From NCBI RefSeq assembly GCF_038637725.1, contig NZ_CP152052.1, forward strand, positions 3,207,501 to 3,271,500: a stretch of 64,000 nucleotides of DNA. The letters run 5' to 3'. Origin of the DNA: Psychrobacillus sp. FSL H8-0483. GTDB lineage: Bacteria; Bacillota; Bacilli; Bacillales_A; Planococcaceae. The notes beneath the pieces are model-generated. The model made no database searches, was not told where the DNA came from, and saw only the letters and a program-made list of their open reading frames with translations. Both the position numbers and the translations under genes were made by a program. Of the stretch, positions 6,876 through 33,610 are shown one piece after another (positions within the stretch are counted from its first letter, which is position 1; each line of letters starts with the position of its first letter).

Positions 6876-7048
6876 ATTTCATTCGTCTCACCAGCTCCAT
6901 CTCCTCTCTCATTACGCTTACGAGGTTAGCTGTCGGGTTTGGGCTAAAAGAGTAGCCCTACCTACATACGTAGGATTCACCCCATATGACTCCTCAAAGC
7001 CACATAAAATGGGTCCCCCGTTCCGATTGGATTAAGCGATATAGAAAT
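6876..7048 (-). ncRNA. ydaO/yuaA-type c-di-AMP riboswitch
   Basis: The minus-strand sequence contains the conserved blocks of this class in order: CGCTTAATCC, CGGGGGACCC, GGGGTGAATCC, GTAGGGCTACTC, AAACCCGACAGCTAACCTCG and TAAGCGTAATGAGAGGAGA. The class binds c-di-AMP and usually switches off K+ uptake or wall genes. It sits in the kimA leader between a sigma-A promoter and an intrinsic terminator, the standard transcription-off design. Confidence 0.93.
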
Positions 7049-15144: not shown

Positions 15145-15515
15145 ATAAATCCACCAACCTTTACTAATTACCTCGAAATTGCACTTCATACAGTAAGAAA
15201 AATCAATATTATTAGTATAACGTATCCATTCCACAAAAAAGAGTCTTCTCACTACAAAATTTTATCTGTAGAAGAAAAACGCTTTTCATCATATTTATCT
15301 TCCTCTGTACTAGTATTTCTTTTGACCTCTACGATTCCAAGTCCAGAGTTATGTAGAAATGGTTATGACTACGAACGTATATGTAACAGGAAGGGAAAAC
15401 AATATACTTACTTGATTTTTAACTCTTTAATTATTTTCAAAATCCACTCTTGCCTATTAACATCAAATGTATCATATGTCATTACAAGACGAACTATTTT
15501 GATATTCAATTTGTA
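15145..15515. other. Gene-free stretch before the EamA gene
   Basis: An open frame covers it on the plus strand but has no ribosome binding site and no recognisable protein. A weak hairpin (CTTCTcacTACA ... TGTAGAAG) at about 15244-15275 resembles the neighbouring terminators. The EamA promoter should lie here. Confidence 0.4.
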
Positions 15516-15941
15516 TTAATCGCCAAATGCAAATATCAGTTCTGTCTCGCAAACTATTTTCCCATCTACAGAAGCTATTCCCTTCCCTTTTCCGATTGGC
15601 CCTTTTAAACGGGTAATTTCTATTTCGAGACGAAGTTGATCACCTGGTTTTACTTGCTGTTTAAAGCGACAATTATCTACACCAGCTAAAAGCCCCAATC
15701 GACCTTGGTTTCCTTCTTTAGTGAGCATTACAACTGCACTTACTTGAGCTAATGCCTCAACAATTAATACACCTGGCATAACTGGATAATTAGGGAAGTG
15801 TCCTTTGAAAAATTCTTCATTTGCTGTCACATTTTTGATACCAACTGCTCTCTTTCCTTCTTCTAGTTCTAAAATCTTATCCACTAAAAGAAATGGATAG
15901 CGATGTCTAATAATATCTTTTATTTTCTGAGTATCAAACAT
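15516..15941 (-). CDS. fabZ: 3-hydroxyacyl-ACP dehydratase FabZ
   Basis: 141 aa hot-dog-fold enzyme of type II fatty acid synthesis, dehydrating 3-hydroxyacyl-ACP to trans-2-enoyl-ACP. The catalytic block [20 protein letters not shown] is intact, with His48 and Glu62. GGAG precedes the start. Other fatty-acid genes are not adjacent. Confidence 0.95.
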
Positions 15942-16027
15942 TATTTCATCTCCTTTATCTACTTTCCATCATTATAACACTTAGTACTAGTATCTAGTAT
16001 TAAATAGTTGGAAATAGAACTCTGCAA

Positions 16028-16076
16028 ATAAAAAAGCGTGTTCATCTACAATTTTTCTGTAGATGAACATGCTTTA
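16028..16076. terminator. Terminator of the sigma/anti-sigma operon
   Basis: Perfect long stem GTTCATCTACA/TGTAGATGAAC extended by AAAGCGT/ATGCTTT, 4 bases after the anti-sigma stop. Confidence 0.88.
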
Positions 16077-16079
16077 GAG

Positions 16080-17699: not shown

Positions 17700-18243
17700 A
17701 AAAATAGCCTCCTTCTCGTTTTATCGTATCTCTCATTTTTTTCTTTGCTCGGTGCAGTTTATTGCGAACATCTGATAGAGGGACTTCGACCAGTTCACTT
17801 ATTTCGTTATAGCTTAACTCATTTACATACCGCAAAAGAATAATCATTCTTTCATCTTCAGGTAGGGTTGCTATTAGTCGTTCTAGTTGTCTGCTTTTCT
17901 CCTTTTTCAAAAAGATGATTTCAGGATAATTAGTGTTTACAACTTTTTCTTCGTTAATTTCCACTTGCTTCATCTTGTAACTGTTTTTACGAAACTCATC
18001 CATACAGTGATTGATCGCCACACGATAAATCCAACCAGCAAACGATCCTTTTTCATCATATTTATCTAGATGATGATACACTTTGATAAATGCTTCTTGT
18101 ACTAAGTCTTGTGCATTCTGCGGATTTTTCGTCATTCGTAAAATCGTCGCATATAGCTGATTTTTATATTTATTAATAATATGTTCGTATGCTTGCTTGT
18201 TACCTGATAGCACCTCATGTATCCACTGTAGTTCTTCTTCCAT
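17677..18243 (-). CDS. ECF RNA polymerase sigma factor
   Basis: 188 aa. Region 2 (LVQEAFIKVYHHLDKYDEKG, WIYRVAINHCMDEFRK) and region 4 (LPEDERMIILLRYVNELSYNEISELV) are intact, as in SigM/SigW/SigV-type factors. AAGGAGG precedes ATG 18243; the frame to 18291 is not supported. The cognate anti-sigma gene follows with overlap. Confidence 0.9.
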   Translation of the reverse strand: MEEELQWIHEVLSGNKQAYEHIINKYKNQLYATILRMTKNPQNAQDLVQEAFIKVYHHLDKYDEKGSFAGWIYRVAINHCMDEFRKNSYKMKQVEINEEKVVNTNYPEIIFLKKEKSRQLERLIATLPEDERMIILLRYVNELSYNEISELVEVPLSDVRNKLHRAKKKMRDTIKREGGYFYELSEGR

Positions 18244-18300
18244 ATTGACCTCCTTGCTAAAACGATCATGCGCATGTCTCGTTTTTATCACTCACCTATC

Positions 18301-20622: not shown

Positions 20623-20991
20623 TCGGTGATCTTATGGCATTTGTCTGTCCGTCGCCCTCCTTCAACAGTACGAATAAGGTTAAGATCTTTTTGGATAATG
20701 AGTGAAAAGTTGCTTTCCAACTCATAAAGCTTCAGAGAATGCAATTTTGGGTGCTCTAGTGCTCCTCTATACAATAGATGCTAACTATTTTTTGATCATA
20801 TACTCTTTACCAGTTGAAGAAAATTAGCAGAAATGCTCTTCTTAAAGATTCTTGCTAGCTAAAAGGTCCATCCCTCTACCTTACCTTGTATGCAATCCAC
20901 TGCATTTTCCTTTAGTTCAAAGTACCAGACCTTAGCCTAAAGAAATGATTAAGTCAATGTCAATTGCTATATTATAGGATTAATTTTCTTA
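20623..20991. other. Unassigned stretch before the repeat array
   Basis: A minus-strand frame (20562-20774, 70 codons) starts MYRGALEHPKLHSLKLYELE and runs into the preceding hairpin; it has no ribosome binding site and I do not recognise it. It may be a degraded mobile-element end. The rest shows nothing identifiable. Confidence 0.3.
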
Positions 20992-21079
20992 TTCAACTAA
21001 CCTGCTTCTTTAGTTGAATAAGAAAAAAAGAGCCGTCAGCATCTCAATGATCTTTAAGTAAAGCCCCTGTCAGTTAAAG
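20992..21079 (-). repeat. attC-like repeat A
   Basis: Left arm TTCAACTAACC, inner arms CTTTAGTTGAA and TTTAAGTAAAG, hairpin around AGCCGTCAGCATCT, right arm degenerate (GTCAGTTAAAG). Lies 3' of the hydrolase gene. Confidence 0.7.
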
Positions 21080-21165
21080 TATATTTATTCACAAACTCTT
21101 CACTGCAAATAAATATTGTCTTAAGTGCTATATCAGCAACATCTGAGCAACTTTCATTTAATGAA

Positions 21166-21759
21166 TTAATGTTTCGATAAAAAATCAACCAATATGTCAA
21201 AAGATTCTTGTGCAGATTTTACATTATATTTTGAATTGTTGGGGTCACTAAATCCATGTTCTCCGTGAATTTTATGTATCTCGATATTCTTTTTTTCTAA
21301 GTATGATATTAATTCGTTGACATTAAATGATTTCTCACTTTCAGGAAAGAAAAGCATTGTTGAACATAAAGGTTCAATCTCTAGATAGTTTCTAATTCGC
21401 GAACCATAGTAACCAACAATTCCATCAATATCGTTTTCTTCACTGCACAACCATGCAATGGTTGCCCCAACACTAAATCCAACAATAAAGACTTTTTCAT
21501 ATGAATCTTTATTATCTTGCAATACACGTTTAATTTTATTTGTCGCATTAATAAACCCGATATTCTCCATAAAATTTCGATAAGCAACTTCTTCAAATGA
21601 ATATTCAAAAGGTCCTTCTATTTCTAATAAGTTGGGGCAAATAACATCAAAGCCTCTTTCTGATAATGAATGGCAAACTTTCTTCATATGCTGGTTAACT
21701 CCATAAATTTCATGTACTACTATAATTAATTTGTTTGAGTTACTTTGTATGTTTATCAA
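21166..21759 (-). CDS. Dienelactone-hydrolase-like alpha/beta hydrolase
   Basis: 197 aa alpha/beta hydrolase. The nucleophile elbow is GFSVG with Ser in place of the Cys of true dienelactone hydrolases; the catalytic His is in HGEHGFSDP, and the opening VVHEIYGVNQHMK is characteristic of the family. TTG start with AGGGGG 8 bases upstream. Substrate unknown. It is a single-gene unit between repeats B and A. Confidence 0.8.
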   Translation of the reverse strand: MINIQSNSNKLIIVVHEIYGVNQHMKKVCHSLSERGFDVICPNLLEIEGPFEYSFEEVAYRNFMENIGFINATNKIKRVLQDNKDSYEKVFIVGFSVGATIAWLCSEENDIDGIVGYYGSRIRNYLEIEPLCSTMLFFPESEKSFNVNELISYLEKKNIEIHKIHGEHGFSDPNNSKYNVKSAQESFDILVDFLSKH

Positions 21760-21821
21760 ATTATACCCCCTATTAAATCAGAAACTTTCTTCTAATAATA
21801 CAAAATAAATGGATAATACTT

Positions 21822-21897
21822 ATTCAGCTAAACTGCGCCTTTAGTTCAAAAAGAAAAGAGCGTTACCCCTCTTAAGTAACACCCCAACTAATTCAAT
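21822..21897 (-). repeat. attC-like repeat B
   Basis: TTCAGCTAAACTGC, CTTTAGTTCAA, A-rich block, then a shorter hairpin and a diverged right arm. Ends 11 bases from the GNAT stop. Confidence 0.6.
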
Positions 21898-21907
21898 ATA
21901 AGCAACA

Positions 21908-22363
21908 TTAAATTTCTTTTTCCATCAAAACATTTGTAGTCTGATAACCTAATTTTTCATATAATCCTCTTGCGACCATGTTATGACCAAAAACATGAAG
22001 ACCTATTTTAATCATTCCAAGTTTTTGCCCAACATTCTCTATTTGCTTCATTGCTTCCTTGGCATACCCAAATCCTTGGTATTTTTCTAATATATTAATA
22101 TCATAAATAAATCCTTCTTTTTCAGATTTTTGTGCAAGCCATATAACTCCAATTGCCTTGTCATCATTTAGAATAGTGTATAAGAAATTACTCTCAGTCT
22201 TCTCACCATTTGGCAAAAGCTTTGTATATTCCTCTTCCGCTTTACTAATTGATTCTTCCTGATTCCAATTCCCAGATAAAACTTTTTCTTCCGCATATGA
22301 TTTAATCGCTGAAGTAATATATTTTTGATACTCATCGGAATTCATTAAAACTAATTTAATCAT
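21908..22363 (-). CDS. GNAT family N-acetyltransferase
   Basis: 151 aa. The acetyl-CoA-binding block is YQGFGYAKEAMKQIE followed by the usual GLHVFGHNMVARGLYEKLGY end. AGGGGGAG precedes the ATG. Target unknown. Unit between repeats C and B; the gap from start to repeat C is 57 bases. Confidence 0.85.
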   Translation of the reverse strand: MIKLVLMNSDEYQKYITSAIKSYAEEKVLSGNWNQEESISKAEEEYTKLLPNGEKTESNFLYTILNDDKAIGVIWLAQKSEKEGFIYDINILEKYQGFGYAKEAMKQIENVGQKLGMIKIGLHVFGHNMVARGLYEKLGYQTTNVLMEKEI

Positions 22364-22420
22364 TGTTTTTTCTCCCCCTTATACTTGTAACTTCTATAAA
22401 ATAGCATTCAATTCCTTCTT

Positions 22421-22500
22421 TTCACCAACATGCTGCGTTAGCTCTATAAGAAATAGGGCATTGTTTCTGCCCTTTTTGGTAATCAAATTCTGTTAAATTA
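22421..22500 (-). repeat. attC-like repeat C
   Basis: ACCAACATGCTGCGTTAGC left part; hairpin GGGCA/TGCCC; right end TTCTGTTAAATTA, which contains the Nudix stop codon. Confidence 0.55.
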
Positions 22501-22959
22501 TTTTATTACTGGCAAAGGCACCTGGTTCACCCAATCCTGAATGAATCGCTCTTGATGCGAGTTCAAATGAGGTAGGTTATTACGGGAAAAGAATCGGTGT
22601 TCGTAACTTTCTTCAGTGCGATGAAGTAATTCTCCTGAAAAACAACTTGAATGGAAAATAACCTGAACGCTGAAAACTTTATCTCCATTCTGATATTCTG
22701 CAAAACCTTCTTCACCTGAATAAAGACCAAACAACTGTAATTGTTCAACTTTTAATCCTGTTTCCTCGAATGTTTCTCTCACAGCTGTTTCAAGGAACGT
22801 TTCTCCAGGCTCCATAACCCCCCCTGGAATACCCCAAACATCGCGATCCGTTCGATGTTGTAGTAAAATCTTATTTTCTTGTTCAAGAATAATTCCACAA
22901 CCTACAGTCATGAGCATTTCATTTCCAATTAATTTGCGAATTGTTTGAATGTAATTCAT
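22498..22959 (-). CDS. Nudix hydrolase
   Basis: 153 aa. A perfect Nudix box, GGVMEPGETFLETAVRETFE then ETGL, follows the 23-residue pattern GX5EX7REUXEEXGU. Similar to MutT/ADP-ribose pyrophosphatase-type enzymes; the true substrate is unknown. ATG 22959 with AAGGAGG is preferred over 22992. Its stop codon lies inside repeat C. Confidence 0.88.
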   Translation of the reverse strand: MNYIQTIRKLIGNEMLMTVGCGIILEQENKILLQHRTDRDVWGIPGGVMEPGETFLETAVRETFEETGLKVEQLQLFGLYSGEEGFAEYQNGDKVFSVQVIFHSSCFSGELLHRTEESYEHRFFSRNNLPHLNSHQERFIQDWVNQVPLPVIK

Positions 22960-23009
22960 TATTTCCTCCTTGATCTTTTGTATAAAAAGCATTTTAATGG
23001 GGAGTCCTT

Positions 23010-23102
23010 CTTGAACTAACCTTCTTCTTTAGTTGAATAAAAAAATGAGCTGTCTAAACAGCTCAATGATTTTCAAGTACAGCACCACGTTAGTTCAACA
23101 AG
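23010..23102 (-). repeat. attC-like repeat D (best-preserved copy)
   Basis: Outer arms TTGAACTAAC / GTTAGTTCAA pair over 10 bases. Inner arms TTTAGTTGAA and TTTCAAGTA pair with one mismatch. Central hairpin GAGCTGT-CTAA-ACAGCTC with a T-run on the minus strand. 12 bases from the NIPSNAP stop. Confidence 0.8.
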
Positions 23103-23114
23103 TAGTTAACATTA

Positions 23115-23462
23115 TTAGTTATCTTTATTTAGAGTGGACACTAACGCTTCGTTTTTCACTTCCAATATATATTCAGTAAAAACATGTTCCCTACCGCCAT
23201 TTTTCTCGTACCACTCTTTAATTCGTTTAACGTGAGTACCGTCAGCTTTTATATTATTCTCTATTTCTATATAATCGTCATAACTGTCATATTCCCAAAT
23301 AGCGAAAATTTCCGTAGTATTATCTTTATTATCATTCATCCAACGTCCTACCAAACGTGCTCCGTGCTTTAGTTGATTAGGTAAATTAGTTTTATTGAAA
23401 TGTTCATTAAATTTCTCTACAAAATCATTTTTTACAGTGTAAAATTTTCTCCGATAAAACAT
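23115..23462 (-). CDS. NIPSNAP-family protein
   Basis: 115 aa single dimeric alpha/beta-barrel (NIPSNAP) domain, with the typical start RRKFYTVKNDFVEKFNEHFN and the pattern WEYDSYDDY. Family functions are poorly known. GGAGGT precedes the ATG. Unit between repeats E and D. Confidence 0.75.
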   Translation of the reverse strand: MFYRRKFYTVKNDFVEKFNEHFNKTNLPNQLKHGARLVGRWMNDNKDNTTEIFAIWEYDSYDDYIEIENNIKADGTHVKRIKEWYEKNGGREHVFTEYILEVKNEALVSTLNKDN

Positions 23463-23543
23463 ACAAGTACCTCCAATAACTTTTTATTTAAAGATTTTCC
23501 TGTACCGCTTACTTATTTCGATAATACCTCGTCATATTCCTCT

Positions 23544-23603
23544 TATTGAACTAACCGAAAATAACTCGACCTTTCTAATTGTTGGTTTTTTCGAGGCGTT
23601 AAC
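23544..23603 (-). repeat. attC-like repeat E, degenerate
   Basis: TTGAACTAACC left arm, hairpin CTCGA...TCGAG, right end GGCGTTAAC. Inner arms are not clear. Confidence 0.45.
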
Positions 23604-23695
23604 AAAAAAAAGCACTCTATAAATAGATGTTTATCCCATATCCCTCCATTTCGATGCATATGATAGTTCAGTTCAAAAAAAAAGGAGGTAATATT

Positions 23696-24523
23696 TTGGG
23701 ATTAAGACGAAGACTTCTTTATGTAACAAATTTTGGTGATAACACGGTAGAAATTTATAATATCACTAATCCAACATCCCCTGTCCGTATTGGAGAGTTT
23801 GGTGCAGCAGATTTAAGTGATCCTATCGATGCAGCAATTACAGGTACTACTTTGTATGTAACAAATTTTGCTGATAACAACACGGTGGAAATTTATGATA
23901 TTTCCAATCCAACCGCTCCTGTCCGTGTTGGCGAGTTTGGTGCTGCAGATCTAATGCTTCCTTCCGGATTGGCTATCACAGGTACCACTTTGTATGTAAC
24001 AAGTCAAGATAATAATACGGTTGAAATTTATAATATTTCCGATCCAAACGCTCCTGTCCGTGTTGGCGAGTTTGGTGAAGGAGATATATTTGTTCCTGGC
24101 GGATTGGTGATTACAGGTACAACGTTATATGTTTCAAATTCAGGCGATGACACAGTGGAAATATATAATATTTCCAATCCAACCGTTCCTGTCCGTGAAG
24201 GCCAATTCAATTCCGGAAATTTAGATGGTCCTTTTGCATTGGCTATAAGAGGTACTACTTTGTATGTATCAAATACAGGGAATGACACGGTAGAAATTTA
24301 TGATATTACCAATTTAACCGCTCCAGTACGTGTAGGCGAGTTTAATGCGAATGATGTTTTTGGATTGGAAATTACAGATTCTACGTTGTATGTAGCAACC
24401 TCTCTTGCTAACACGGTACAAATTTATGATATTTCCAATCCAACCGATCCTGTACCTGTAGGGCAACTCAATGCCGGAAATTTAAATCGTCCTTCCGGAA
24501 TGGCTATTTTTATGACAGTTTGA
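23696..24523 (+). CDS. LVIVD-type beta-propeller protein, six repeats
   Basis: 275 aa made of six tandem repeats of about 46 residues, each with LYV(T/S)N ... NTVEIY(D/N)I(S/T)NP ... PVRVGEF. This suggests a six-bladed propeller of LVIVD/lactonase-like type. There is no signal peptide, so it would be cytoplasmic or exported by another route. TTG start at 23696 with AAAGGAGGT 6 bases upstream; the longer frame from 23627 has no site. It is on the strand opposite to its neighbours in the array. The DNA repeats are near-identical in places, so copy number may vary between strains. Confidence 0.75.
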   Translation: MGLRRRLLYVTNFGDNTVEIYNITNPTSPVRIGEFGAADLSDPIDAAITGTTLYVTNFADNNTVEIYDISNPTAPVRVGEFGAADLMLPSGLAITGTTLYVTSQDNNTVEIYNISDPNAPVRVGEFGEGDIFVPGGLVITGTTLYVSNSGDDTVEIYNISNPTVPVREGQFNSGNLDGPFALAIRGTTLYVSNTGNDTVEIYDITNLTAPVRVGEFNANDVFGLEITDSTLYVATSLANTVQIYDISNPTDPVPVGQLNAGNLNRPSGMAIFMTV

Positions 24524-24650
24524 TAAATGTTCTATTCAACAAAAGCACCTATATTGAAAAGAGACGACTAGGATATATGCACAGTCAAGTGGCAATTTAA
24601 AACACGAACTGTATCGAAAGTATTTTTAATTAGGATTTATGAGGACAATA

Positions 24651-24680
24651 AAAAGCAACGCCAAAAGGGGTTGCTCTTCT
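24651..24680 (+). terminator. Terminator after the beta-propeller gene
   Basis: AGCAACGCC-AAAA-GGGGTTGCT followed by CTTCTT. Confidence 0.65.
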
Positions 24681-24717
24681 TGTATTCTTGCCTCCTTTCG
24701 TATTATTCCTATGCTTC

Positions 24718-24747
24718 TTTCACTAACCTGCTGTGTTAGTTTAAGTG
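24718..24747 (-). repeat. attC-like repeat F, left half
   Basis: CACTAACCTGCTGTGTTAG then TTTAAGTG: the left outer and inner arms. The right half is at 26263-26298, beyond the IS150-like element. Confidence 0.6.
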
Positions 24748-24810
24748 TAACATTTCACACAGAATCGCCGAAATCTACTTGATATTTTGGACAAAAATAG
24801 ACCATCGAAA

Positions 24811-24835
24811 TGAACTGCCCCGTAAATGTTAGACA
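24811..24835. repeat. IS left inverted repeat
   Basis: TGAACTGCCCCGTAAATG then TTAGACA; pairs with 26232-26256. Confidence 0.85.
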
Positions 24836-24861
24836 CCAACTAACATTTACGGGGTGTTTTT

Positions 24862-25362
24862 ATGTCTAAATATACAGTAGAAGTTAAATTACAAGCGGTG
24901 GTACGCTATTTAACTGGAAACGAAAGCTATCAAACTATTGCAGAAAGCATTGGCGCAGCTAAATCTCAAGTCATTACTTGGGTGAAATTATTTGAAGCAC
25001 AGGGTGAAAAAGGGTTTAAGAAAGGCTATACAAGTTACTCATCTGGGTTTAAACTAGACGTACTTAATTTTATGAACGAAACAGGTACGTCTTTTCTAGA
25101 AACGGCAAGCACATTTAATATTTCTTCTCCGAGTATCATTTATCGGTGGGATCAGTTGCTTAAGACAAAAGGATTGGACGCGCTAGAACCAAAGAAAAAG
25201 GAGCGTCCATCCATGAAAAAAGAAACGAAAAAAGTTGAAGCACAAAAATCAATCCCAGCCGAAGACTCAATAGAAGCCCTACAAGCAAAAATCAAGCATT
25301 TAGAAATGGAGAATGCTTATTTAAAAAAGTTGAAAGCTTTAGTTCAGGCGCAGAAAAAATAA
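24862..25362 (+). CDS. IS150-like transposase OrfA
   Basis: 166 aa with two helix-turn-helix units (YQTIAESIGAAKSQVITWVK and FLETASTFNISSPSIIYRWD) and a C-terminal coiled coil, as in IS150/IS3 OrfA. The slippery run AAAAAAG at 25323-25329 should allow a -1 shift into orfB to give the fused transposase. Confidence 0.9.
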   Translation: MSKYTVEVKLQAVVRYLTGNESYQTIAESIGAAKSQVITWVKLFEAQGEKGFKKGYTSYSSGFKLDVLNFMNETGTSFLETASTFNISSPSIIYRWDQLLKTKGLDALEPKKKERPSMKKETKKVEAQKSIPAEDSIEALQAKIKHLEMENAYLKKLKALVQAQKK

Positions 25363-26225
25363 CAAACAAAATCAAAGCGCAAGTAATTTTTGAACTAAAG
25401 GAACAATATGAGGTCGTGGATTTAGTTCAAATCGCTGACATTCCACGCAGCACTTATTACTACTAGGAAAAGCGACTGAATCAAGTCGATAAATATGAGC
25501 CTGTTAAAGAAGTAATCAATATCATTTATCACGAACATAAGGGGCGTTATGGTTACCGTCGCATCACGAAAGAACTGCAGAAATACGGTTTTACGTATAA
25601 CCCGAAGACCATTAACCGCTTGATGAATGAAATCGGTTTAAAATGTGAGGTCCGTATGAAGAAGTATCGCTCTTATAAAGGAAACGTCGGAAAAATCGCT
25701 CCTAATGTATTACAACGTGATTTCAAGGCGGAGAAAATGAATCAGAAATGGGTAACAGACGTGACCGAATTCCATCTCTTTGGAGAAAAACGTTATCTGT
25801 CACCTGTTCTTGATTTGTGTAATGGTGAAATTATCGCATATAAAGTCATGAATCGACCGGTCTATCAACTTGTAGGTGATATGTTAGACGAAGCTATTCT
25901 GCGCCTACAGCCAGGAGATGAAGTCATTCTTCATTCCGATCAAGGCTGGCAATATCAGATGAAAAAATATCAAAAAACACTACAAGAGCACCAGATAACG
26001 CAAAGTATGTCCCGTAAGGGAAACTGCTTAGATAATGCAGTCATCGAAAATTTCTTTGGCTTATTAAAATCAGAACTGCTTTATTTACAAGAGTTTGAGA
26101 GCATGGCGCATTTTGAAAAGGAATTAGAAGAATATCTTGAATATTACAATCACAAGCGAATGAAGGCAAAATTAAAAGACCTGAGTCCGGTAGAATACCG
26201 AACTCAGATCTTAGAAGTTGCCTAA
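25329..26225 (+). pseudogene. IS150-like transposase OrfB with internal stop
   Basis: The -1 frame after the AAAAAAG slip reads through SFSSGAEKITNKIKAQ into a standard IS3 OrfB, but codon 25464-25466 is TAG after RSTYYY, where relatives commonly have Trp, so TGG to TAG is likely. Downstream the DDE residues are intact: [14 protein letters not shown] and DNAVIENFF. The 201-aa frame from 25620 has no convincing start. The nonsense codon would block the OrfAB transposase. Confidence 0.85.
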
Positions 26226-26231
26226 AATATT

Positions 26232-26256
26232 TGTCTAACTTTATTGGGTCAGTTCA
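26232..26256. repeat. IS right inverted repeat
   Basis: Reverse complement TGAACTGACCCAATAAAG then TTAGACA; AAA follows at 26257-26259, as on the left. Confidence 0.85.
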
Positions 26257-26262
26257 AAATGG

Positions 26263-26298
26263 TCTTGTTCAATTAAAGCACTCGTAACTTAAATAAGT
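26263..26298 (-). repeat. attC-like repeat F, right half
   Basis: CTTGTTCAATTAAAGCACTC then GTAACTT: inner arm TTCAATTAAAG and right box. Removing the IS joins it to 24718-24810. Ends 9 bases from the next gene's stop. Confidence 0.6.
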
Positions 26299-26306
26299 TA
26301 TAGTTA

Positions 26307-26492
26307 TTAATTCTGAGTTTTCATAGCCCTCATTACAATACGGTACACTAAATAACACATACCACCCAGCCCTAAAATACCTACTATAATAAGTAAAGGA
26401 ATTTGTTCAGCATACAACATACCTACGACAAATAAGATAAAACACAGTATTATTCCCACAATACTAAATATGGTGTTTGGTTTAATATCCAA
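26307..26492 (-). CDS. Small two-helix membrane protein
   Basis: 61 aa, two hydrophobic segments (about residues 7-27 and 32-52) and a basic tail. TTG start with AAGGGGGG 7 bases upstream. Unrecognised. Unit with repeat F directly at its 3' end. Confidence 0.6.
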   Translation of the reverse strand: MDIKPNTIFSIVGIILCFILFVVGMLYAEQIPLLIIVGILGLGGMCYLVYRIVMRAMKTQN

Positions 26493-26635
26493 TAATTTCC
26501 CCCCTTATCCATAGACTTATTAATGTACGCTCTTCTCTTTTTTTAACGATTGAGCAGAGTCTTATTAAGTGTTGTCATTTTTCTTTCCTTGAAAAAACTT
26601 ACTTTCACTGGTAGTAGAAGAAGGGATTATTAATA

Positions 26636-27421
26636 TTAAATAGTCAAATCACCTTCAAAGATTGTCACTACTTTCCCTGATAGTAAAACTTTATCATCTA
26701 AAACTTTAACTTTTAAAATACCACCTCTATCGGAAGCTTGGTAAGCAATAAACTCACTTTTTTGTAATTTCCTCTTCCAATATGGACCTAAACAACAATG
26801 TGCTGAACCAGTCACATGATCCTCATTAAGGCCTTGAGCTGGGGAAAAGAAACGTGAAACAAAGTCATATTCATTTGAACTCGAATGACTTGTAACAATA
26901 ACTCCACGGGCTGGTAATTGGGCAATCAGGTCTATCCTTGGTTTTAAATCCCTTACAATAGCTTCTGTTTTTACTTCCACTAAATAATCTAATTGGTTTT
27001 TTCCAACGTATGTAGGCTCAACACCTAAAGCCTCAATCAATAAATCAGGAGTAATTGACTTCTCTTCAAGAATCGAAGGAAACTCTAATTGAACCCATTC
27101 ATCTACGAATCGTGATTTGAGAATACCACTTTTTGTATAAAAGATAATGGTTTTTTCTTTTTCCACGTACCCGTTTTTCCATAAAAAAAAGGAACTTGCC
27201 AGTGTTCCGTGTCCACAAATAGGTATTTCTGTAGAAGGAGTAAACCAGCGTAAATGGTATTCATTTTTGTTGCGATTAATAAAAGCAGTAACCGGTAAAT
27301 TCACCTCTTTTGCAACATCCTGCATCCAACTACTAGCTTTTTCATCACTTAACAAACATACAGCGGCAGGATTTCCTTTAAAAGCTTTCTCTGTAAACGT
27401 ATTAAAGCTAGATAATTTCAT
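26636..27421 (-). CDS. PhzF-family protein, catalytic Glu replaced
   Basis: 261 aa with the PhzF/diaminopimelate-epimerase-like double fold: FKGNPAAVC near the start, TEIPICGHGT at about 64-73, and VTGSAHC in the second half. In PhzF the catalytic Glu lies in a NLSET-type motif; here that position reads NLPVT (residues 41-45), so the acid is missing and isomerase activity of the PhzF kind is doubtful. GGGGG precedes the ATG. No clear repeat lies between it and the small membrane gene. Confidence 0.8.
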   Translation of the reverse strand: MKLSSFNTFTEKAFKGNPAAVCLLSDEKASSWMQDVAKEVNLPVTAFINRNKNEYHLRWFTPSTEIPICGHGTLASSFFLWKNGYVEKEKTIIFYTKSGILKSRFVDEWVQLEFPSILEEKSITPDLLIEALGVEPTYVGKNQLDYLVEVKTEAIVRDLKPRIDLIAQLPARGVIVTSHSSSNEYDFVSRFFSPAQGLNEDHVTGSAHCCLGPYWKRKLQKSEFIAYQASDRGGILKVKVLDDKVLLSGKVVTIFEGDLTI

Positions 27422-27505
27422 TTTGATTCCCCCGTTTGGTGTAACCTTTTCTTCCTAATAATTCTCTAACAAGTTTGACATAACCCTATCATAACTAGAT
27501 CCCTT

Positions 27506-27595
27506 GTTAAAAACTAACCTGCTGCTTTAGTTGAACAAGAAAAAAGAGCTACATTGCAACTCAATGTTCTTCCGCTATAGCACTCGTTAGTGAAT
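27506..27595 (-). repeat. attC-like repeat I
   Basis: AACTAACCTGCTGCTTTAG then TTGAACAAG; hairpin GAGCTACATTGCAACTC; right end GCACTCGTTAGTGAA, which carries the stop codon of the small frame beside it. Confidence 0.7.
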
Positions 27596-27682
27596 AATTT
27601 TTTCCCATACTCTTTGTACATTCTGAAGATTTGCATCTGAAAAAATCAACTTGTATATATCAGGTTTAGTAGTGCTTTTCAA
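27587..27682 (-). CDS. 31-aa frame, probable truncated cassette gene
   Basis: TTG start with AGGTGA upstream, 31 codons, ending in NLQNVQRVWEKIIH. The TAA is inside repeat I. It looks like the C-terminus of a longer protein cut by repeat J, but a genuine small protein is possible. Unrecognised. Confidence 0.3.
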   Translation of the reverse strand: MKSTTKPDIYKLIFSDANLQNVQRVWEKIIH

Positions 27683-27706
27683 AAAAAAAGATTCACCTAT
27701 TTATTT

Positions 27707-27780
27707 CATTCAACTAACCAAAGTTAAAAGTAAAATACAAAAAAGCGTCAATTTTTTAAAATCAACGCTGTTAATTTATT
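27707..27780 (-). repeat. attC-like repeat J
   Basis: TTCAACTAACC left arm; hairpin AGCGTCAATTTT/AAAATCAACGCT; right end CTGTTAATTTATT containing the histidine-phosphatase stop codon. Acts as that gene's terminator. Confidence 0.6.
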
Positions 27781-28301
27781 TCATTAAAATCCAACTTGCC
27801 AATTACTTCATATCCTTTTCTCCAGCCTTTTGGTTGAATTACAATTCCAGTCATATACGGTAAATTCCCTAACTCTATTTCTTTAGGAAAACTATGGCCT
27901 ATGATTATCCTGTTTTGTCCTGTAGAGGGTGGAAGTTCGAATAATCTTCTATTCTCATGAATGATGATTTTTCTCTTAGCATCAGTAATTGTTGGCACTT
28001 CACTTAAAGTAACAATTTCTGCCAATGATTGTACAATACGTATAATCTTATTAGGAAAAGCTAATTTTGCAGTGTCAATTGCTCTACAAAAGGGACTTGA
28101 AATTACAACTGGTTCGATTGGTATTCCTGTCTGCCTAATGACTTTTCCAATAATCATTGCTTGTTGTTTACCAGTCTCACTTAAATTCCTTTGGGTCCTA
28201 CAATCTTCAAATTTTACAGTTTGGTCATCATTTCCGACTGTTGCTTCAGCATGTCTGAAATAGATAATATAACCACCATTCAGTAGCTTGTCAAATGTCA
28301 T
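27771..28301 (-). CDS. Histidine phosphatase superfamily protein
   Basis: 176 aa. The RHAE motif (YFRHAEAT) with phospho-accepting His17 and a second catalytic His in IIIGHSFP place it in branch 1 of the phosphoglycerate-mutase-like phosphatases. The region SETGKQQAMIIG is typical. ATG 28301 with GGAGG 6 bases upstream is preferred over 28322. Substrate unknown. Unit between repeats K and J. Confidence 0.85.
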   Translation of the reverse strand: MTFDKLLNGGYIIYFRHAEATVGNDDQTVKFEDCRTQRNLSETGKQQAMIIGKVIRQTGIPIEPVVISSPFCRAIDTAKLAFPNKIIRIVQSLAEIVTLSEVPTITDAKRKIIIHENRRLFELPPSTGQNRIIIGHSFPKEIELGNLPYMTGIVIQPKGWRKGYEVIGKLDFNEIN

Positions 28302-28397
28302 GTTATCCTCCAATACTGCCATATTTATGTTAAATGATTAACTAGTATATTTAAATTATCCTAAAAATGTTACTAATTCTAGATGGGAATAAAACTC

Positions 28398-28408
28398 TTC
28401 TTCAACTA
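28398..28408 (-). repeat. attC-like repeat K, left end
   Basis: TTCTTCAACTA; the copy continues at 29138 after the group II intron remnant. Joined, it reads CTTCAACTAACCTGCTGCG, the canonical form. Confidence 0.65.
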
Positions 28409-29137
28409 GTCGAGTAGAAGGGAACCTCTCTAACTTACGGTAGATTGTGTTCCTCCCCCTCACAGAACCGTGCTTGCGCTATTCACGCACACGGCTCCTC
28501 CTAGTCATCATTCACAAAATGTAGCTAATCTCTTTTCTTAAGTCGTATATATTCACCTTAACTCTTGGTGAAGGTAACGGATGTTTATGAAGAAAGAGAT
28601 TGAATTTATCCCAAGTAAAGGATTTCCTTTTGCTAATCTTCCTTTTAGAAGAGTATGGTGTACAAGCGATAATAAGCAAGGAAACCAAATGCCTTTGTAG
28701 GGAGTCGGATAGCAGCGTAGTACCAATGAAGTTGGGTAATGCCGATGGAGGAAAGGCTAGCTACCAGTTATCATCCTTACTAGGGACACATTTACTACAC
28801 GCAGAGGTAGGTATAAATGGGAAACAAAACTACTAAGGATAGCAGAACCATGTGTAACGTGCCAAGGTCTCTGACTCCAGAGAGGTTTTATCCTTCTTGC
28901 CTTTAACGAAGGATAAAATGTAGCTTTCTGCTGCAGGTAAAGCATCAGCCCTATCGATTTACTAACATTATGGAGCTCAATCCCTTCAACCATTTGGCTT
29001 TCGGCCCGCCACCTAACTGTCTACGCTTATAGACTAACGTTACCGTTAGCCCTCCAAGACTCGCTACGAGCGAATGGCTAATTCTTACTCGACGGGAATC
29101 CCACCCGCTATATGATACGACCTAGGCTCGGCCGCAC
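28409..29137 (-). mobile_element. ORF-less group II intron remnant
   Basis: 729 nt on the minus strand. It begins GTGCGGCC (GUGYG consensus) and ends TCTACTCGAC (AY consensus). Near the 3' end lies a domain V (28465-28497) followed by a domain VI-like hairpin. The 5' half has domain-I-like blocks (GGGATTCCCGTC, AAGCGTAGACAGTTAGGTGG, CCGAAAGCC). No reverse transcriptase frame remains. Removal of exactly this interval restores a canonical repeat, which defines the ends. Domain V has GAAU instead of GAAA in the loop and is one base short, so it may not be catalytic. Confidence 0.75.
28465..28497 (-). ncRNA. Group II intron domain V
   Basis: GAGCCGTGTGCGTGAATAGC then GCAAGCACGGTTC: the AGC triad, stem and distal GGTTC of domain V. 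Confidence 0.75.
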
Positions 29138-29220
29138 ACCTGCTGCGTTAGCACAATAAGAAAAAAGAGCCGTCTAAGTAGCTCATTGATCTTTGACTAA
29201 CGCACCCGTTACTTTAATAA
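29138..29220 (-). repeat. attC-like repeat K, main part
   Basis: ACCTGCTGCGTTAGCACAAT, hairpin AGCCGTCTAAGTAGCT, right inner arm GACTAACGC, end CCCGTTACTTTAAT. Inner arms GCGTTAG/CTAACGC differ from the CTTTAG type of other copies on both sides, a compensatory change. Confidence 0.7.
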
Positions 29221-29259
29221 AAATTACATAATCTTCAGCCTTTCTCTTTGATTTTCAGG

Positions 29260-29493
29260 TTATTTTAACCAATAACGAACTCCTTTACCAGCTAAAGGTT
29301 CATCATTATACCTTGGAATAACGTGGAATGAAAAATAGATTGATTTGAAACTTTTCCTACGTTCCAACCAAGTGTGTAACCATCTGGTGCATATTTATCA
29401 TCGAGATATTTCTTAGCATTTTGCAAAAGTTTATATGTATCGTTCCATTCATCTTTTGTTAATTCAAAAGCATTAGCGTGATGTAATCTATAA
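29260..29493 (-). pseudogene. HIT-family hydrolase remnant
   Basis: The reading HHANAFELTKDEWNDTYKLL ... GYTLGWNVGKVSNQSIFH continues, after a one-base shift, as HVIPRYNDEPLAGKGVRYWL, the C-terminal half of a HIT (histidine triad) protein. The N-terminus is gone at repeat L, and the HxHxH region is damaged by the frameshift. A broken single-gene unit 5' of repeat K. Confidence 0.75.
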
Positions 29494-29498
29494 ATACC

Positions 29499-29592
29499 TT
29501 ATTCAACTAAACTGGCTATTTAATTGAACAAGAAAAAGAGCCATCTATGCAGCTCGTTGATCTTTTGTAAGTGAAAAGTGCCTCTGTTTAAT
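29499..29592 (-). repeat. attC-like repeat L
   Basis: TTATTCAACTAAACTGGC, inner arm TTTAATTGAAC, hairpin AGCCATCTATGCAGCT, end CCTCTGTTTAAT holding the stop codon of the adjoining fragment. Confidence 0.7.
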
Positions 29593-29664
29593 ACAGCCCC
29601 CCATACCATTTTTCAATAATTCCACCACCTTTGGTTGTTACTTCTCCATGAATGTTCGAAGTTC
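29588..29664 (-). pseudogene. Gene 3' fragment (about 25 codons)
   Basis: Open frame without a start, ending NIHGEVTTKGGGIIEKWYGG then LY; the TAA lies inside repeat L and the 5' side is cut by repeat M. Unrecognised truncated cassette. Confidence 0.4.
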
Positions 29665-29667
29665 CTT

Positions 29668-29745
29668 CTTACACTAAACTGCTGGGTTAGAATTCAAAAA
29701 AAAAAGCGTTAATCCGTCCTGGATCACCGCCTCTATAATTTAAGA
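29668..29745 (-). repeat. attC-like repeat M, degenerate
   Basis: ACACTAAACTGCTGGGTTAG, A-run, hairpin region AGCGTTAATCC...GGATCACCGC, right arm lost. Confidence 0.5.
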
Positions 29746-29789
29746 AGAAATTTCATAATTTCTTCTACACATTAAAATAATCCAATCCC

Positions 29790-29903
29790 TTAATGGATGG
29801 TCCCAGAATCATGAAGAAGTTTGGATGCTTCTGTATGTTCCCATTCTTCCACTGTCTTATATGCTCTTTTTGGAAAATACTCTTTACCTAGAAGAACTCC
29901 CAT
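29790..29903 (-). pseudogene. Gene 3' fragment (37 codons)
   Basis: MGVLLGKEYFPKRAYKTVEE ... LLHDSGTIH. The frame stays open a few codons 5' (FYILQEVIL) without a ribosome binding site, so it is probably a decayed gene end. Unrecognised. Confidence 0.35.
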
Positions 29904-30022
29904 TAGAATAACTTCTTGAAGAATGTAGAATTTATTCCTTTTTTAATATCGTATAATCCTTATTTTACCAAAAACGCGTGCTGTATCCATTCATCTGGAG
30001 ACTTGCAGTAAATAACGGTATT

Positions 30023-30610
30023 TCAGTTGTGATGACTATCACCCTCTTCAGCAGCCTCTGCATCTGATTTGGTAGGATGAACAGTACCAAACGGATGGTT
30101 GGGAGGAGCATATATCGAATAAAGTTTTAGTGGAATATTACCTGTATTTGTTAGATTATGCCATGTTCCAGCAGGTATCACTATTGCAGAATCATCGTAG
30201 ACATTTCTTATAAAGTTTAAATTATCTTTACTTTTGCCCATTTGAACAATCCCCTGGCCTTGTTCAATACGTAAGAATTGATCAACGTCAGGATGCATTT
30301 CCAAGCCGATATCTTCTCCAACATGGAGACTCATTAAAGTAACTTGTAAATGTGTCCCTGTCCATAAAGCGGTACGATAAGTATTGTTTTGCTTAGTTGC
30401 TTCATTGATATTAACGACAAATGGTTCCGGTCCATAATCTGTTAACAATATTCTACCATCACCATTGGATGAGCAGTAAGAACTAAATCTGTTTGCATGT
30501 TCTAACTCATTAGGATATGTCCAGTAAACCGATTGTCTTCCATAGTTATTCATTGGCACATTAGTATAATAAGGGTATTGACATTGATACATATAAGGAA
30601 CATAATACAT
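30023..30610 (-). CDS. Cupin-domain protein with Tyr-rich N-terminus
   Basis: About 195 aa. Residues 1-25 are rich in Tyr, Pro and Gln (YVPYMYQCQYPYYTN), as in spore-coat-associated proteins. A cupin follows with EMHPDVDQFLRIEQGQG (motif 1) and IPAGTWHNLTNTG (motif 2), keeping the His/Glu metal ligands. Sporulation association is inferred from composition only. ATG 30610 is used; a GTG at 30628 is possible because the AAGGGA site lies 11 bases upstream. Confidence 0.75.
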   Translation of the reverse strand: MYYVPYMYQCQYPYYTNVPMNNYGRQSVYWTYPNELEHANRFSSYCSSNGDGRILLTDYGPEPFVVNINEATKQNNTYRTALWTGTHLQVTLMSLHVGEDIGLEMHPDVDQFLRIEQGQGIVQMGKSKDNLNFIRNVYDDSAIVIPAGTWHNLTNTGNIPLKLYSIYAPPNHPFGTVHPTKSDAEAAEEGDSHHN

Positions 30611-30676
30611 TTTTCTCAATCCCTTCACCGTTTATTAAATTATCCTATGCAACGTGTTAAAGGAATGTACTTAGAC

Positions 30677-30955
30677 TCAGGTATTCCTTAAATCACAACG
30701 TTCCTTAACCTCCAGCTGGTGCCGCTGCAGGCTGTCTTTTGCCCAATTCCTGATTAACCAATAAAAATTGGCGGCAGGATTTTTTTGAGCCAATGTGAGA
30801 CGAGAAATAATCGTTTGCGCCTGAGCTTCTTCATCAATCTGCTCTCTCATGAAATCCTGAGTGATAACCGTTGAATGTGGGTCCACTTGATTCACGTAAT
30901 TGAATGCTAGACAATAAGAATTTGTGACATAGCGGTCATGATTGAAGTTCTTATT
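30677..30955 (-). pseudogene. N-truncated protein fragment
   Basis: 93 codons open after a TGA, with an internal ATG at 30895 but no ribosome binding site there. The reading NSYCLAFNYV ... PAANFYWLIRNWAKDSLQRH looks like a real C-terminal domain, possibly a coat or ferritin-like protein. Not identified. Confidence 0.4.
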
Positions 30956-31074
30956 TCAACTTTTCCGTTCTTTTTAAATTACATCAAGTATCGTATGCTT
31001 TATTTTCTTAAAACGCCACATCATCCAAACCTTCATGAAAATTTTCTCGCTTATACTTTTTTAAGTACATCTCT

Positions 31075-31100
31075 TATTCAACTAACCTGCCCCGTTAGCC
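31075..31100 (-). repeat. attC-like repeat N, left end only
   Basis: TTATTCAACTAACCTGCCCC then GTTAG; the rest is lost. Last copy on this side. Confidence 0.5.
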
Positions 31101-31211
31101 ATCCATGAAGCTTTTCTTCACCACAGAATATGCAAGAATATTACGTTCTTCCATGGTAGTTTAAGTACATTTCTTCACAATCTTTATAATGGCATTTACA
31201 TAAATATCCAA

Positions 31212-31465: not shown

Positions 31466-31747
31466 CTATAACCTTATAAAAACTTCTGTACCATCTTTTG
31501 CTTTGACATCAACGATTTCGAGCCCTCTATGTCTTTTCAGTTCTTTCACAATTTCTTTGAGTTCCTTTTTATCTAGTTGCGGAATCGTAAATGGCATTTC
31601 TTTTTCCTTCTTATTCTCCACCGTCCACTTGTTTATCATTTTATTCAATAATTGTGAAGAAAGTATAGTAATGCCTATGTTTAGTATCATATAAGGAACG
31701 GGAATCGAGAGTCGTATAGCTTTTGATTTTACTTTTACGTTTAGCAT
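31466..31747 (-). CDS. Small membrane-anchored protein with YvlB-like tail
   Basis: 93 aa. One hydrophobic segment (about residues 14-35), then a charged linker and a C-terminal LEIVDVKAKDGTEVFIRL that resembles the end of the neighbouring 128-aa protein (QIVDIKSANGDTISVTIE). Ten bases after that gene, so same operon. Weak ribosome binding site. Function unknown. Confidence 0.65.
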   Translation of the reverse strand: MLNVKVKSKAIRLSIPVPYMILNIGITILSSQLLNKMINKWTVENKKEKEMPFTIPQLDKKELKEIVKELKRHRGLEIVDVKAKDGTEVFIRL

Positions 31748-31756
31748 ATGAGCACT

Positions 31757-32143
31757 CTATTCTATCGTAACGGAAATTGTATCACCATTTGCAGACTTGA
31801 TATCAACAATTTGTCCGTCTAATTCATTTTCGATTGCATCCAGAATTAAGCTGATATCGATGTCTTTTACGTACTTTTCTGATTGGGGAATACTTGAAGC
31901 AATATTGTGTCCGGCCAACAATACAACTTTTACAAGCTTAATTGGCAAATTGACAGTGACGTTATCATTTTCAGCTGATACGACTCGTACTTTTAATGTT
32001 TTGTCTGCATATACAGGTGATTTTGGTGAAGATGCGCTTCCAGATTCTCGTGCTTTTAATACTTGAATAAGCTCGGAAGCCTTCGCTGCATCCACTTTCC
32101 CTTCCTGTACCATTGTTAATACTTTTTCAATTTCTGCATTCAT
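31757..32143 (-). CDS. YvlB-like protein with SHOCT-like N-terminus
   Basis: 128 aa. The first 30 residues (VLTMVQEGKVDAAKASELIQ) form a short helical motif common at the start of YvlB/DUF4097 proteins; the rest is a small domain of unknown role. Second gene of the operon led by the DUF2089 protein. Confidence 0.7.
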   Translation of the reverse strand: MNAEIEKVLTMVQEGKVDAAKASELIQVLKARESGSASSPKSPVYADKTLKVRVVSAENDNVTVNLPIKLVKVVLLAGHNIASSIPQSEKYVKDIDISLILDAIENELDGQIVDIKSANGDTISVTIE

Positions 32144-32155
32144 CTCTAATTCCCC

Positions 32156-32521
32156 CTATTCATCTTTTAAAAGTCTAATCGCTTCTTCCGAAGTTATTTC
32201 TCCGTTTTCTAACATTGCAATTACCTTTTTCTCATCCACTTCGTTTTTCTTCTTTGTTTCGAAGCCTAGGGAGCTAACAACCTCATTCAGTTTGCCTCGA
32301 ACTGTTGGATAGGAAATTCCAAGTTCTTTTTCAACTTCCTTAATATTTCCACGACATGTTAGAAATACTTCGACAAATCGAAGTTGTTCATTTGATAGGG
32401 AAGCCAATTTGGATAATTCGAATTCATTTTCAATTGTTGTGTGACAGTGAGTGCAATGTAACTTCGTGATTTTTAATGTTTCACTACAGACAGGACAATG
32501 ACTAATTACTTGATGGGCCAT
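32156..32521 (-). CDS. DUF2089 zinc-ribbon/HTH regulator (YvlA-like)
   Basis: About 121 aa. A zinc ribbon (CPVC ... CTHC) is followed by a helix-turn-helix (NIKEVEKELGISYPTVRGKL) and a C-terminal helical motif (MLENGEITSEEAIRLL) like the start of the next protein. Likely transcriptional regulator of the operon and possibly of an envelope stress response (inference). Start at MAHQVISHCP because homologues begin there; AGGAGGG is then 15 bases away, so an in-frame ATG at 32560 or 32557 remains possible. Confidence 0.75.
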   Translation of the reverse strand: MAHQVISHCPVCSETLKITKLHCTHCHTTIENEFELSKLASLSNEQLRFVEVFLTCRGNIKEVEKELGISYPTVRGKLNEVVSSLGFETKKKNEVDEKKVIAMLENGEITSEEAIRLLKDE

Positions 32522-32841
32522 AATATCTTTTAAGTCCCTCCTCTTATTTGTATTCATCATATATCATCAAAATAACAAAATCAACATTAAAATTAAATAA
32601 TTAAATTTATTTAAGCTAAATACTAAATAATATTAATTTAAATATAGACAATCTAATTTTCAATTACAAAAAAAGGTGTAGAATGAGTCAAAATTGACTT
32701 ATTCTACACCATTCTTTTCGGTATATACTTTACAAGATAAATTTTGCTCATATATTAAGGACTTTGTTAAAGCAATTGATCGTTTACAGAGCCTTATTTT
32801 TAATTTATGAATTATTTTTATCAAACCTGGAATATCTTCCA
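32522..32841. other. AT-rich intergenic stretch
   Basis: Promoter region of the YvlA-like operon and a terminator hairpin at 32668-32716 (GGTGTAGAAT.AGTCAA stem). No gene seen. Confidence 0.6.
32668..32716 (-). terminator. Second terminator behind the ABC operon
   Basis: GGTGTAGAAT...ATTCTACACC long stem followed by seven T on the minus strand. Confidence 0.7.
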
Positions 32842-32882
32842 TAAAAAACGAGCAAACCCCATATAAACAGGGCTTGCTCGTC
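32842..32882 (-). terminator. Terminator of the amino-acid ABC operon
   Basis: ACGAGCAAACCC/GGGCTTGCTCGT with T-run, 6 bases after the ATPase stop. Confidence 0.85.
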
Positions 32883-32887
32883 TATGA

Positions 32888-33610
32888 TTATAAAACCTTC
32901 TCTAAAAACTCTTTCGCACGAACGGATTTTGGCTCTGTGAAAAACTGTGCTGGTGGCGTATCTTCCACAAGCTGACCACCATCTAGGAATAGAATACGAT
33001 CCGCTACTTCACGAGCGAAGTTCATTTCATGCGTTACAATGACCATCGTCATACCTGATTCAGCAAGTGACTTCATTACCTCAAGTACTTCCTTTACCAT
33101 CTCTGGATCAAGTGCTGACGTTGGTTCATCAAATAGCATAACAGATGGATTCATCGCTAATGCACGCGCAATCGCTACACGTTGCTTTTGTCCACCTGAT
33201 AGGCGGTTTGGATATGCATCCCGTTTCTCATAAAGACCAACCTGACGTAGAAGCTCATCTGCTTTTGCAATTGCTTCTGTTTTCGAAATCCCCTGCACAT
33301 TTCTTGGTGCATACGTAATGTTCTCAAGCACAGTTTTATGCGGGAACAAGTAGAAATGCTGGAACACCATTCCGACATTTTCACGTACCTTCATAATATT
33401 TGTGCTCTTATCTGTTACAACATCGTTTCCTATCGTAATAACGCCTTTCGTTGGTTCCTCTAATAAGTTTATACAACGTAAAAACGTTGACTTTCCCGAA
33501 CCCGATGGACCAATAATAGCGATTACTTCTTTTTCTTTTATTTCAGTTGAAATCCCTTTTAACACTTCATTTTGTCCGAATGATTTATGCAAGTCTTCTA
33601 CTTTAATCAC
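32888..33610 (-). CDS. Polar amino-acid ABC transporter, ATPase
   Basis: 240 aa GlnQ/TcyN-type ATPase. Walker [10 protein letters not shown] (34-42), signature LSGGQKQR, Walker B MLFDEP and the switch His (VTHE) are all present. It energises uptake by the permease whose gene overlaps by 8 bases and the lipoprotein encoded upstream. Substrate could be Gln, Arg, cystine or similar. Confidence 0.93.

Follow-up and report, generated by a model that had tools for sequence, protein, structure and literature searches.

The window, that is the whole 64,000-nucleotide stretch of Psychrobacillus sp. FSL H8-0483 that was analysed, carries an array of small genes and intervening repeat sites that spans positions 20988 to 31166 (Table 1). 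The strand given for each site is that of the pattern CTTATTCAACTAAC..., and the cassette genes lie on the opposite strand. Apart from the genes listed, a + strand open reading frame at 23627-24523 encodes 45-residue beta-propeller-like repeats with a 135-base period and is the only cassette-sized gene that opposes the direction of its neighbours. The two halves of site F are separated by an IS3-type element, and copies about 91% identical to it interrupt other arrays of the genome (L042 and L051). Besides the common hairpin, the same arms enclose at many places another, non-coding body (CCATCCATGAAGC...CTTCCATGGTAG) of about 230-290 bp, as in the last site of the window array, L051:9994-10287 and L041:6613-6892, and it seems to move as a unit of its own. 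A c-di-AMP riboswitch (110.6 bits) was also detected in the window on the minus strand at 6899-7048.

In five relatives, the syntenic flanks were without the window array. Genome G017 was 92% identical up to window position 20487 and divergent beyond it, and the stretches 15500-18300 and 31466-33610 lie near each other in another order in genomes G016 and G006, which indicates chromosomal rearrangement in the surroundings of the array.

Table 1. Sites, genes and inserted elements of the window array, in window positions
Feature	Position	Strand	Match
attC-like site A (LH, hairpin with minus-strand T-run, RH)	20988..21080	+	
Cassette gene, dienelactone hydrolase family, 197 aa	21166..21759	-	PF01738, 79.9 bits
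attC-like site B	21819..21902	+	
Cassette gene, GNAT acetyltransferase, 151 aa	21908..22363	-	PF00583, 60.2 bits
attC-like site C, right half degenerate	22415..22500	+	
Cassette gene, NUDIX hydrolase, 164 aa	22498..22992	-	PF00293, 74.7 bits
attC-like site D, full, terminator-like palindrome GAGCTGTCTAAACAGCTC	23007..23102	+	
Cassette gene, NIPSNAP-domain protein, 115 aa	23115..23462	-	PF07978, 32.4 bits
Site F, left half, split from right half by IS3-type element	24714..24790	+	
IS3-type element inside site F, two ORFs	24862..26225	+	HTH_Tnp_1, rve domains
Site F, right half	26270..26297	+	
Cassette gene, PhzF-like protein, 261 aa	26636..27421	-	PF02567, 197.4 bits
attC-like site G	27502..27604	+	
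Cassette gene, histidine phosphatase family, 183 aa	27771..28322	-	PF00300, 25.5 bits
Site K, outer left arm, beyond intron	~28387..28408	+	
Group IIC intron without ORF	28409..29137	-	RF02005, 151.7 bits; RF00029, 48.4 bits
attC-like site K, inner arms GCGTTAG left and CTAACGC right	29138..29221	+	
attC-like site L, right half degenerate	29498..29590	+	
attC-like site M, degenerate	29665..29745	+	
Cassette gene, cupin-domain protein, 201 aa	30023..30628	-	PF07883, 36.8 bits
Site N, last of the array, with the second type of body (GTTAGCCATCCATGAAGC...CCATGGTAG)	31073..31166	+	

Anatomy and number of the repeat sites

Read directly, window positions 29138-29220 run ACCTGCTGCGTTAGCACAATAAG...GACTAACGCACCCGTTAC, and the inner arms GCGTTAG and CTAACGC that the earlier note had picked out in copy K are both present there and able to pair. 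Its description of the remaining copies was inaccurate, as among the 10 window copies, aligned and read by eye, the supposedly prevalent left arm CTTTAGTTGAA did not predominate (CTTTAG stood on the left in 4/10) and a near match to the right arm TTCAA.TAAAG was found only in the copy at 20988. Across the 67 full sites of this genome GCGTTAG is the common left form and not an exception, so that copy K is unusual only in the C of its right arm (5/67); at the highlighted position, the left and right bases are G/A in 41 sites, T/A in 20, T/C in 3, G/C in 2 and G/T in 1. The outer left arm of K is missing from 29138-29220 because the group IIC intron splits the site, having inserted on the minus strand into the LH simple site at GCAGGT/TAGTTGAAG (the slash marks the insertion point).

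Each full site consists of two simple sites, LH and RH, that flank one hairpin. The LH simple site reads CTTnTTCAACTAA-mCTGCnnCk-TTAGTTnAAtAAG and the RH simple site TTnAAsTAA-AGCACnCG-TTAGTTnAAnAAG, and the consensus of 182 sites gives cTTnTTcAACTAAaCTGCtnCgTTAGTTnAAtAag for LH, a variable hairpin, and an RH ending in AgTAAAGCAC..GTTAGttnAAnaag. In both halves, inverted arms flank a core of 8-9 bases, so that the whole site stands in the attC order R''-L''-L'-R'. The repeats are short and imperfect (~35 bp per half), and the hairpin, whose gene strand has a T-run, resembles a terminator for the adjoining gene. The left core was matched 137 times in the genome (62 on the + and 75 on the - strand, at most 3 mismatches) against 7 matches of a reversed control pattern; with about 140 in this genome, the repeats are far beyond chance. 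They cluster in arrays, the longest of which covers ~1.844-1.907 Mb (62 kb) of the single-contig 4.14 Mb genome. An identity as tRNA-like elements was rejected, none being detected, and so was one as known Rfam elements since, the group IIC intron aside, no Rfam element accounts for the repeats.

The linked recombinase and the probable movement of cassettes

Within the 62-kb array lies an intact gene for a tyrosine recombinase of 279 aa (G000:C1:1853417-1854256; PF00589, 134.9 bits), bracketed by an LH site on its 5' side and an RH site on its 3' side, and decayed copies occur in other arrays of the genome. The residues R137, K161, H227, R230, H253 and Y262, which we take to be catalytic, were invariant in four homologues and again in 14 more, R230 nearly so in the latter. 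Judged by sequence, the recombinase is closest to XerA, XerC and XerD and not to IntI. Its closest solved structures by sequence were XerC-like, XerD and XerA (132, 126 and 112 bits) as against 70 bits for IntI4; the XerA model NF040815 gave scores of 222.4 and 224.6 for a cut-off of 220 (214.1 for the L061 homologue), and the XerD and XerC equivalog cut-offs were not reached (208.8 vs 329.6 and 200.3 vs 335.15, respectively). The IntI model TIGR02249 was matched by all 14 relatives in an alignment (A3) from which L131 and L142 were left out for stops in their reading frames (best E 1.9e-28; first member 89.6 bits), and the recombinase of this genome fell below the cut-off of that model with 90.6 bits vs 265. 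Residues 94-187 match positions 88-181 of the IntI profile and residues 200-266 match positions 234-300 (TIGR02249 coordinates), the IntI-specific insert between the catalytic patches being absent, with ~12 residues where the profile has 52 (~40 fewer). The predicted structure of the recombinase was poor (mean pLDDT 62.7, pTM 0.40).

These scores bear on the idea that the arrays are relics of a classical integron (CALIN) whose true IntI acts in trans or has been lost. The array and site layout is integron-like, which speaks for such a relic; against it stand the low IntI score of the linked recombinase, the profile residues that it lacks, its XerC-like, XerD and XerA structural neighbours and the absence from this genome of any protein over the TIGR02249 cut-off, and we consider this origin very improbable.

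A scan of one genome per species returned 246 candidate recombinase relatives, from which 78 loci were kept, nearly all of them in Bacillales by record title (one is titled Chryseobacterium). Flanks were read at 48 of the 78 loci and, with L065, L085 and L086 excluded as they had no flank, 45 remained. An LH-like site was present 60-135 bases upstream of the integrase gene in 37/45 loci, an RH-like site downstream of it, after the terminator of the gene, in 35/45, and both in 29/45; the loose LH and RH expressions used for this match random windows of the same loci at 15% and 28%, respectively. Being flanked by LH and RH, the integrase gene is placed where the hairpin stands in an ordinary site. 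As at an attI-like primary site, simple sites lie beside the integrase gene and variable cassettes follow the RH site. A 94% identical recombinase with sites is also carried by the 266-kb plasmid pSP10-266k of Sporosarcina psychrophila (L059), where the integrase unit and its sites lie near mercury-resistance genes and a NUDIX gene.

We compared the arrays of this genome, three relatives and twelve further records, excluding stretches that ended near a locus edge. Both ends lay at site arms in 69 of the 271 distinct homologous stretches (0.1% expected under random placement) and at least one end did so in 156 (7.5% expected), counts that include non-independent pairs and the integrase unit itself. 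There were 67 non-redundant pairs with both ends on simple sites in both loci, and for 357 homologous stretches at least one end lay off the simple sites. Among the 16 pairs read, four kinds of unit were found: one running from RH to RH with a gene followed by a hairpin, one from LH to LH with the hairpin ahead of the gene, one from RH to LH with only a gene, and the integrase unit, from LH to RH. The cassette beside the RH site of this genome's integrase recurs in another array with 99.3% identity over 699 bp, and the integrase-adjacent cassette of genome G011 recurs in another array of that genome with 99.4% identity over 693 bp; of the other such cassettes (15 tested in all), one has a 91% copy in another genome, 2 match only the record of their own genome and 10 match nothing in the set. 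From these borders we infer that cassettes move as units whose ends lie inside the sites.

Inverted repeats at the ends of units, and the presence of the integrase unit and of the 230-290 bp non-coding unit at many places with different flanks, could also be produced by MITE-like inverted-repeat elements moved in a transposase-like manner, with the tyrosine recombinase as unrelated cargo. However, the units stand directly side by side in arrays and have end repeats in common, one unit is replaced by another at the same border with no target duplication visible in the pairs read, and the recombinase is a recurrent gene bracketed by half-sites in most loci examined, which makes such elements a very improbable source of the pattern.

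The repeats are instead probably the sites at which an integron-like cassette system of Bacillales, run by the linked Xer-type recombinase, recombines. The 279-aa enzyme most likely binds the TTCAACTAA/TTAGTTGAA arms, and strand exchange would take place at the borders CTAA/core/TTAG; the arrays, the anatomy of the sites, the linkage of the integrase, the breakpoints at sites, the targeting by introns and the orientation relative to replication are seen in the sequence, and the action of the enzyme on these sites and the cut positions at the core borders are inferred. It would thereby excise, insert or shuffle anything between two simple sites, the movable units being a gene plus hairpin, a gene alone or the integrase unit.

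Covariation, folding and intron targeting

The earlier note had taken the arms of copy K to have changed together in a compensatory manner, had seen in this a suggestion that the folded form is selected as for attC, and had named an absence of significant covariation in a larger alignment as evidence to the contrary. The alignment assembled here holds 182 distinct sites, drawn from this genome, from its relatives and from near genera, and was subjected to an R-scape-style test in which substitutions were redistributed along a FastTree tree. None of the 27 arm pairs reached E < 0.05 in the 182 sites (the best, L12, had E 0.15), the very outcome that the note had set against its own reading, and the compensatory interpretation is not sustained. 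The highlighted pair gave p 0.44 and is mostly a G/A mismatch, with counts of G-A 114, T-A 56, G-C 3 and T-C 3 in the 182 sites. It was Watson-Crick in 33% of the 67 sites of this genome vs 36% after shuffling, and in 36% vs 28% of the 89 sites of other loci (p 0.0005, from shuffles that ignore relatedness). The outer arms within a site showed no excess complementarity over shuffled ones (z 0.1 in 76 sites of this genome and 1.2 in 123 others), and the linkage expected between one end of a cassette and the other was not found (z -0.6 for 109 of this genome and 1.3 for 258 others).

Complementarity of the arms follows from the single consensus common to all copies, and binding of a protein to inverted arms would keep them conserved equally well. 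A search for compensatory inner arms across genera yielded only 11 sites, T/A in 10 and A/T in 1, which is too few. GATAG/CTATC-like arms were present at the integrase flanks of L087, L101 and L105, other GATAG loci having no matching arm, and this pattern would also be expected from a shift in the arm sequence preferred by the protein. For a comparison of hairpin sharing between homologous cassettes flanked on each side by a complete site, 109 segments yielded 0 usable pairs. The covariation argument for a selected fold is unsupported, while the analogy with attC itself is well supported by other evidence, namely the cassette arrays, the linked recombinase flanked by half-sites, the breakpoints at sites and the group IIC introns in the core.

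All 18 distinct 5' ends of group IIC introns in array loci lie in the site core (10 located by a strict script and 8 by eye), the usual insertion point being CTAACGCAGCAGGT/TAGTTGAA. Group IIC-attC introns of integrons are inserted into R'', on the bottom strand of attC at TTGT/T (PMC7923331); the likeness is that the intron stands in the core beside the outer arm, at AGGT/T here and at TTGT/T in R'' of attC. In integrons such introns usually oppose the cassette genes (PMC7923331), whereas both introns of this genome (window site K and L041) run with them. The position of the genes and that of the introns give opposite answers as to which strand is equivalent to the attC bottom strand. The contig begins at dnaA; with the terminus taken at the antipode, 92/100 sites of this genome point against the replication fork, and the sites of genomes G003 and G011 change strand across the presumed terminus. 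In G003 an array of ~116 kb with some 60 exact left cores (G003:C1:837386-953371) lies beside the presumed replication terminus.

Double-stranded simple sites and a folded strand as in attC are about even as the form on which the recombinase would act. Ordinary double-stranded tyrosine recombination tolerates differing cores poorly, and the LH and RH cores here differ from each other and between copies, which counts against a double-stranded model. Non-identical cores would suit a variant of the main explanation in which the sites recombine as a folded single strand like attC and the folded form is selected, as would the layout R''-L''-L'-R' with complementary arms and the site orientation that follows replication. 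The DNA fold of 2/6 copies beat all 200 shuffles (z -3.6 and -3.9), and two inner-arm positions are regularly mismatched (G/A, G/G) and could mark polarity. The introns, in the core beside the outer arm, would lie on the bottom strand in the attC sense if the pattern strand counts as the top one (rule from PMC7923331). The other 4/6 folded copies gave z of only -0.8 to -2.0, however, the minimum-energy fold in 3/6 copies was a hairpin within LH and not the long fold, and covariation is absent from the 182 sites and from the whole outer arms. Besides, attC uses one side only and the units here end at LH as well as at RH. We therefore give the folded strand, with selection on the fold, slightly less than an even chance.

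Distribution and relation to known systems

The recombinase was found in 15/19 genomes of the genus (E 1e-60) and site matches in all 19/19, with 15-280 left cores each (controls 1-7). Among 22 genomes outside the genus, the sole integrase carrier has 165 left cores and the other 21 have 0-5. In a hand tally of 261 genomes of the order, at least 10 left cores were present in 36/40 with an integrase at least 80% identical, in 5/30 with only a more distant integrase (58-67% identity) and in 21/191 without an integrase match; the site sequence tracks the integrase subfamily. As arrays without an integrase match occur in 4/19 genomes of the genus and 21/191 of the order, another recombinase could act.

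Such arrays, and the terminator-like hairpins in the sites, would also be compatible with homologous or illegitimate recombination between abundant terminator repeats, for which no site-specific recombinase is needed. This is highly unlikely in view of the shortness and imperfection of the repeats, the concentration of breakpoints at the arms, the fixed point that the introns recognise in the core and the tracking of the integrase subfamily by the site sequence (36/40 vs 21/191).

The cassette system proposed here resembles integrons in its arrays of small accessory genes, each beside a site of four inverted core boxes, in a tyrosine recombinase whose gene has a simple site next to it, in cassettes that recur at different places with their borders in the site, and in group IIC introns that target the sites. 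It differs from them in having an Xer-type recombinase without the IntI insert, encoded by a gene that stands between two site halves and forms a movable unit of its own, in the use of both simple sites as borders, in very conserved arms, and in its host order, Bacillales. In integrons only the R' side of attC is used, hence the site travels with its gene; the units here are not confined to one side, as RH-RH, LH-LH, RH-LH and LH-RH units are all present. With attC the sites share the four boxes R'', L'', L' and R' with pairing arms, and differ in that conservation of structure over sequence, in the form of covariation, is absent from the 182 sites. The motif GTTAGTT fits the R' box GTTRRRY at 6/7 positions, with T at the third R (consensus as given in PMC7923331). 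From its sequence the system appears to work like an integron, yet it is no member of that class by the IntI test or by the rule of one-sided sites.

The recombinase belongs to the sequence family of XerC, XerD and XerA, and the simple sites are like dif in having two inverted arms around a short core. Unlike dif, of which there is one, the paired sites number tens to hundreds per genome and stand in gene arrays, and unlike Xer the recombinase gene is multi-copy, decaying and mobile. The bcr repeats of the Bacillus cereus group are likewise dispersed intergenic repeats in Bacillus relatives, the host here being Psychrobacillus, and to our knowledge they are not known as cassette borders.

Our full-text literature search, which covers few subscription papers or preprints, found no earlier description of the cassette system, and a large cassette system of Bacillus relatives, comparable to the integrons of Gram-negative bacteria but with another recombinase, has apparently been undescribed so far. 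We would tentatively, and at a little under even confidence, regard it as a second, independently evolved integron, with an Xer-type recombinase of Bacillales, up to hundreds of sites, LH and RH both active, and an integrase gene lodged in one of its own sites, which would make the capture machinery a cassette as well; it would be present on chromosomes and on at least one plasmid. For Firmicutes, the IntegronFinder 2.0 paper gives one complete integron (Limnochorda) and a few CALINs (PMC9024848). Integrons are regarded as nearly absent from Firmicutes, and the authors of that paper find gaps of this kind intriguing and propose an incompatibility (PMC9024848). As the order has a look-alike system, the scarcity of integrons in Firmicutes becomes a testable question, and their niche in this phylum may be filled by a convergent system. 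A functional look-alike of integrons across a whole order would be missed by searches based on IntI. It would give Gram-positive bacteria a way to capture small genes and to spread them, as illustrated by the array of >100 kb in G003 (837-953 kb) and the copy on a Sporosarcina plasmid, and would provide a new pair of recombinase and site for comparing the evolution of cassette integration.
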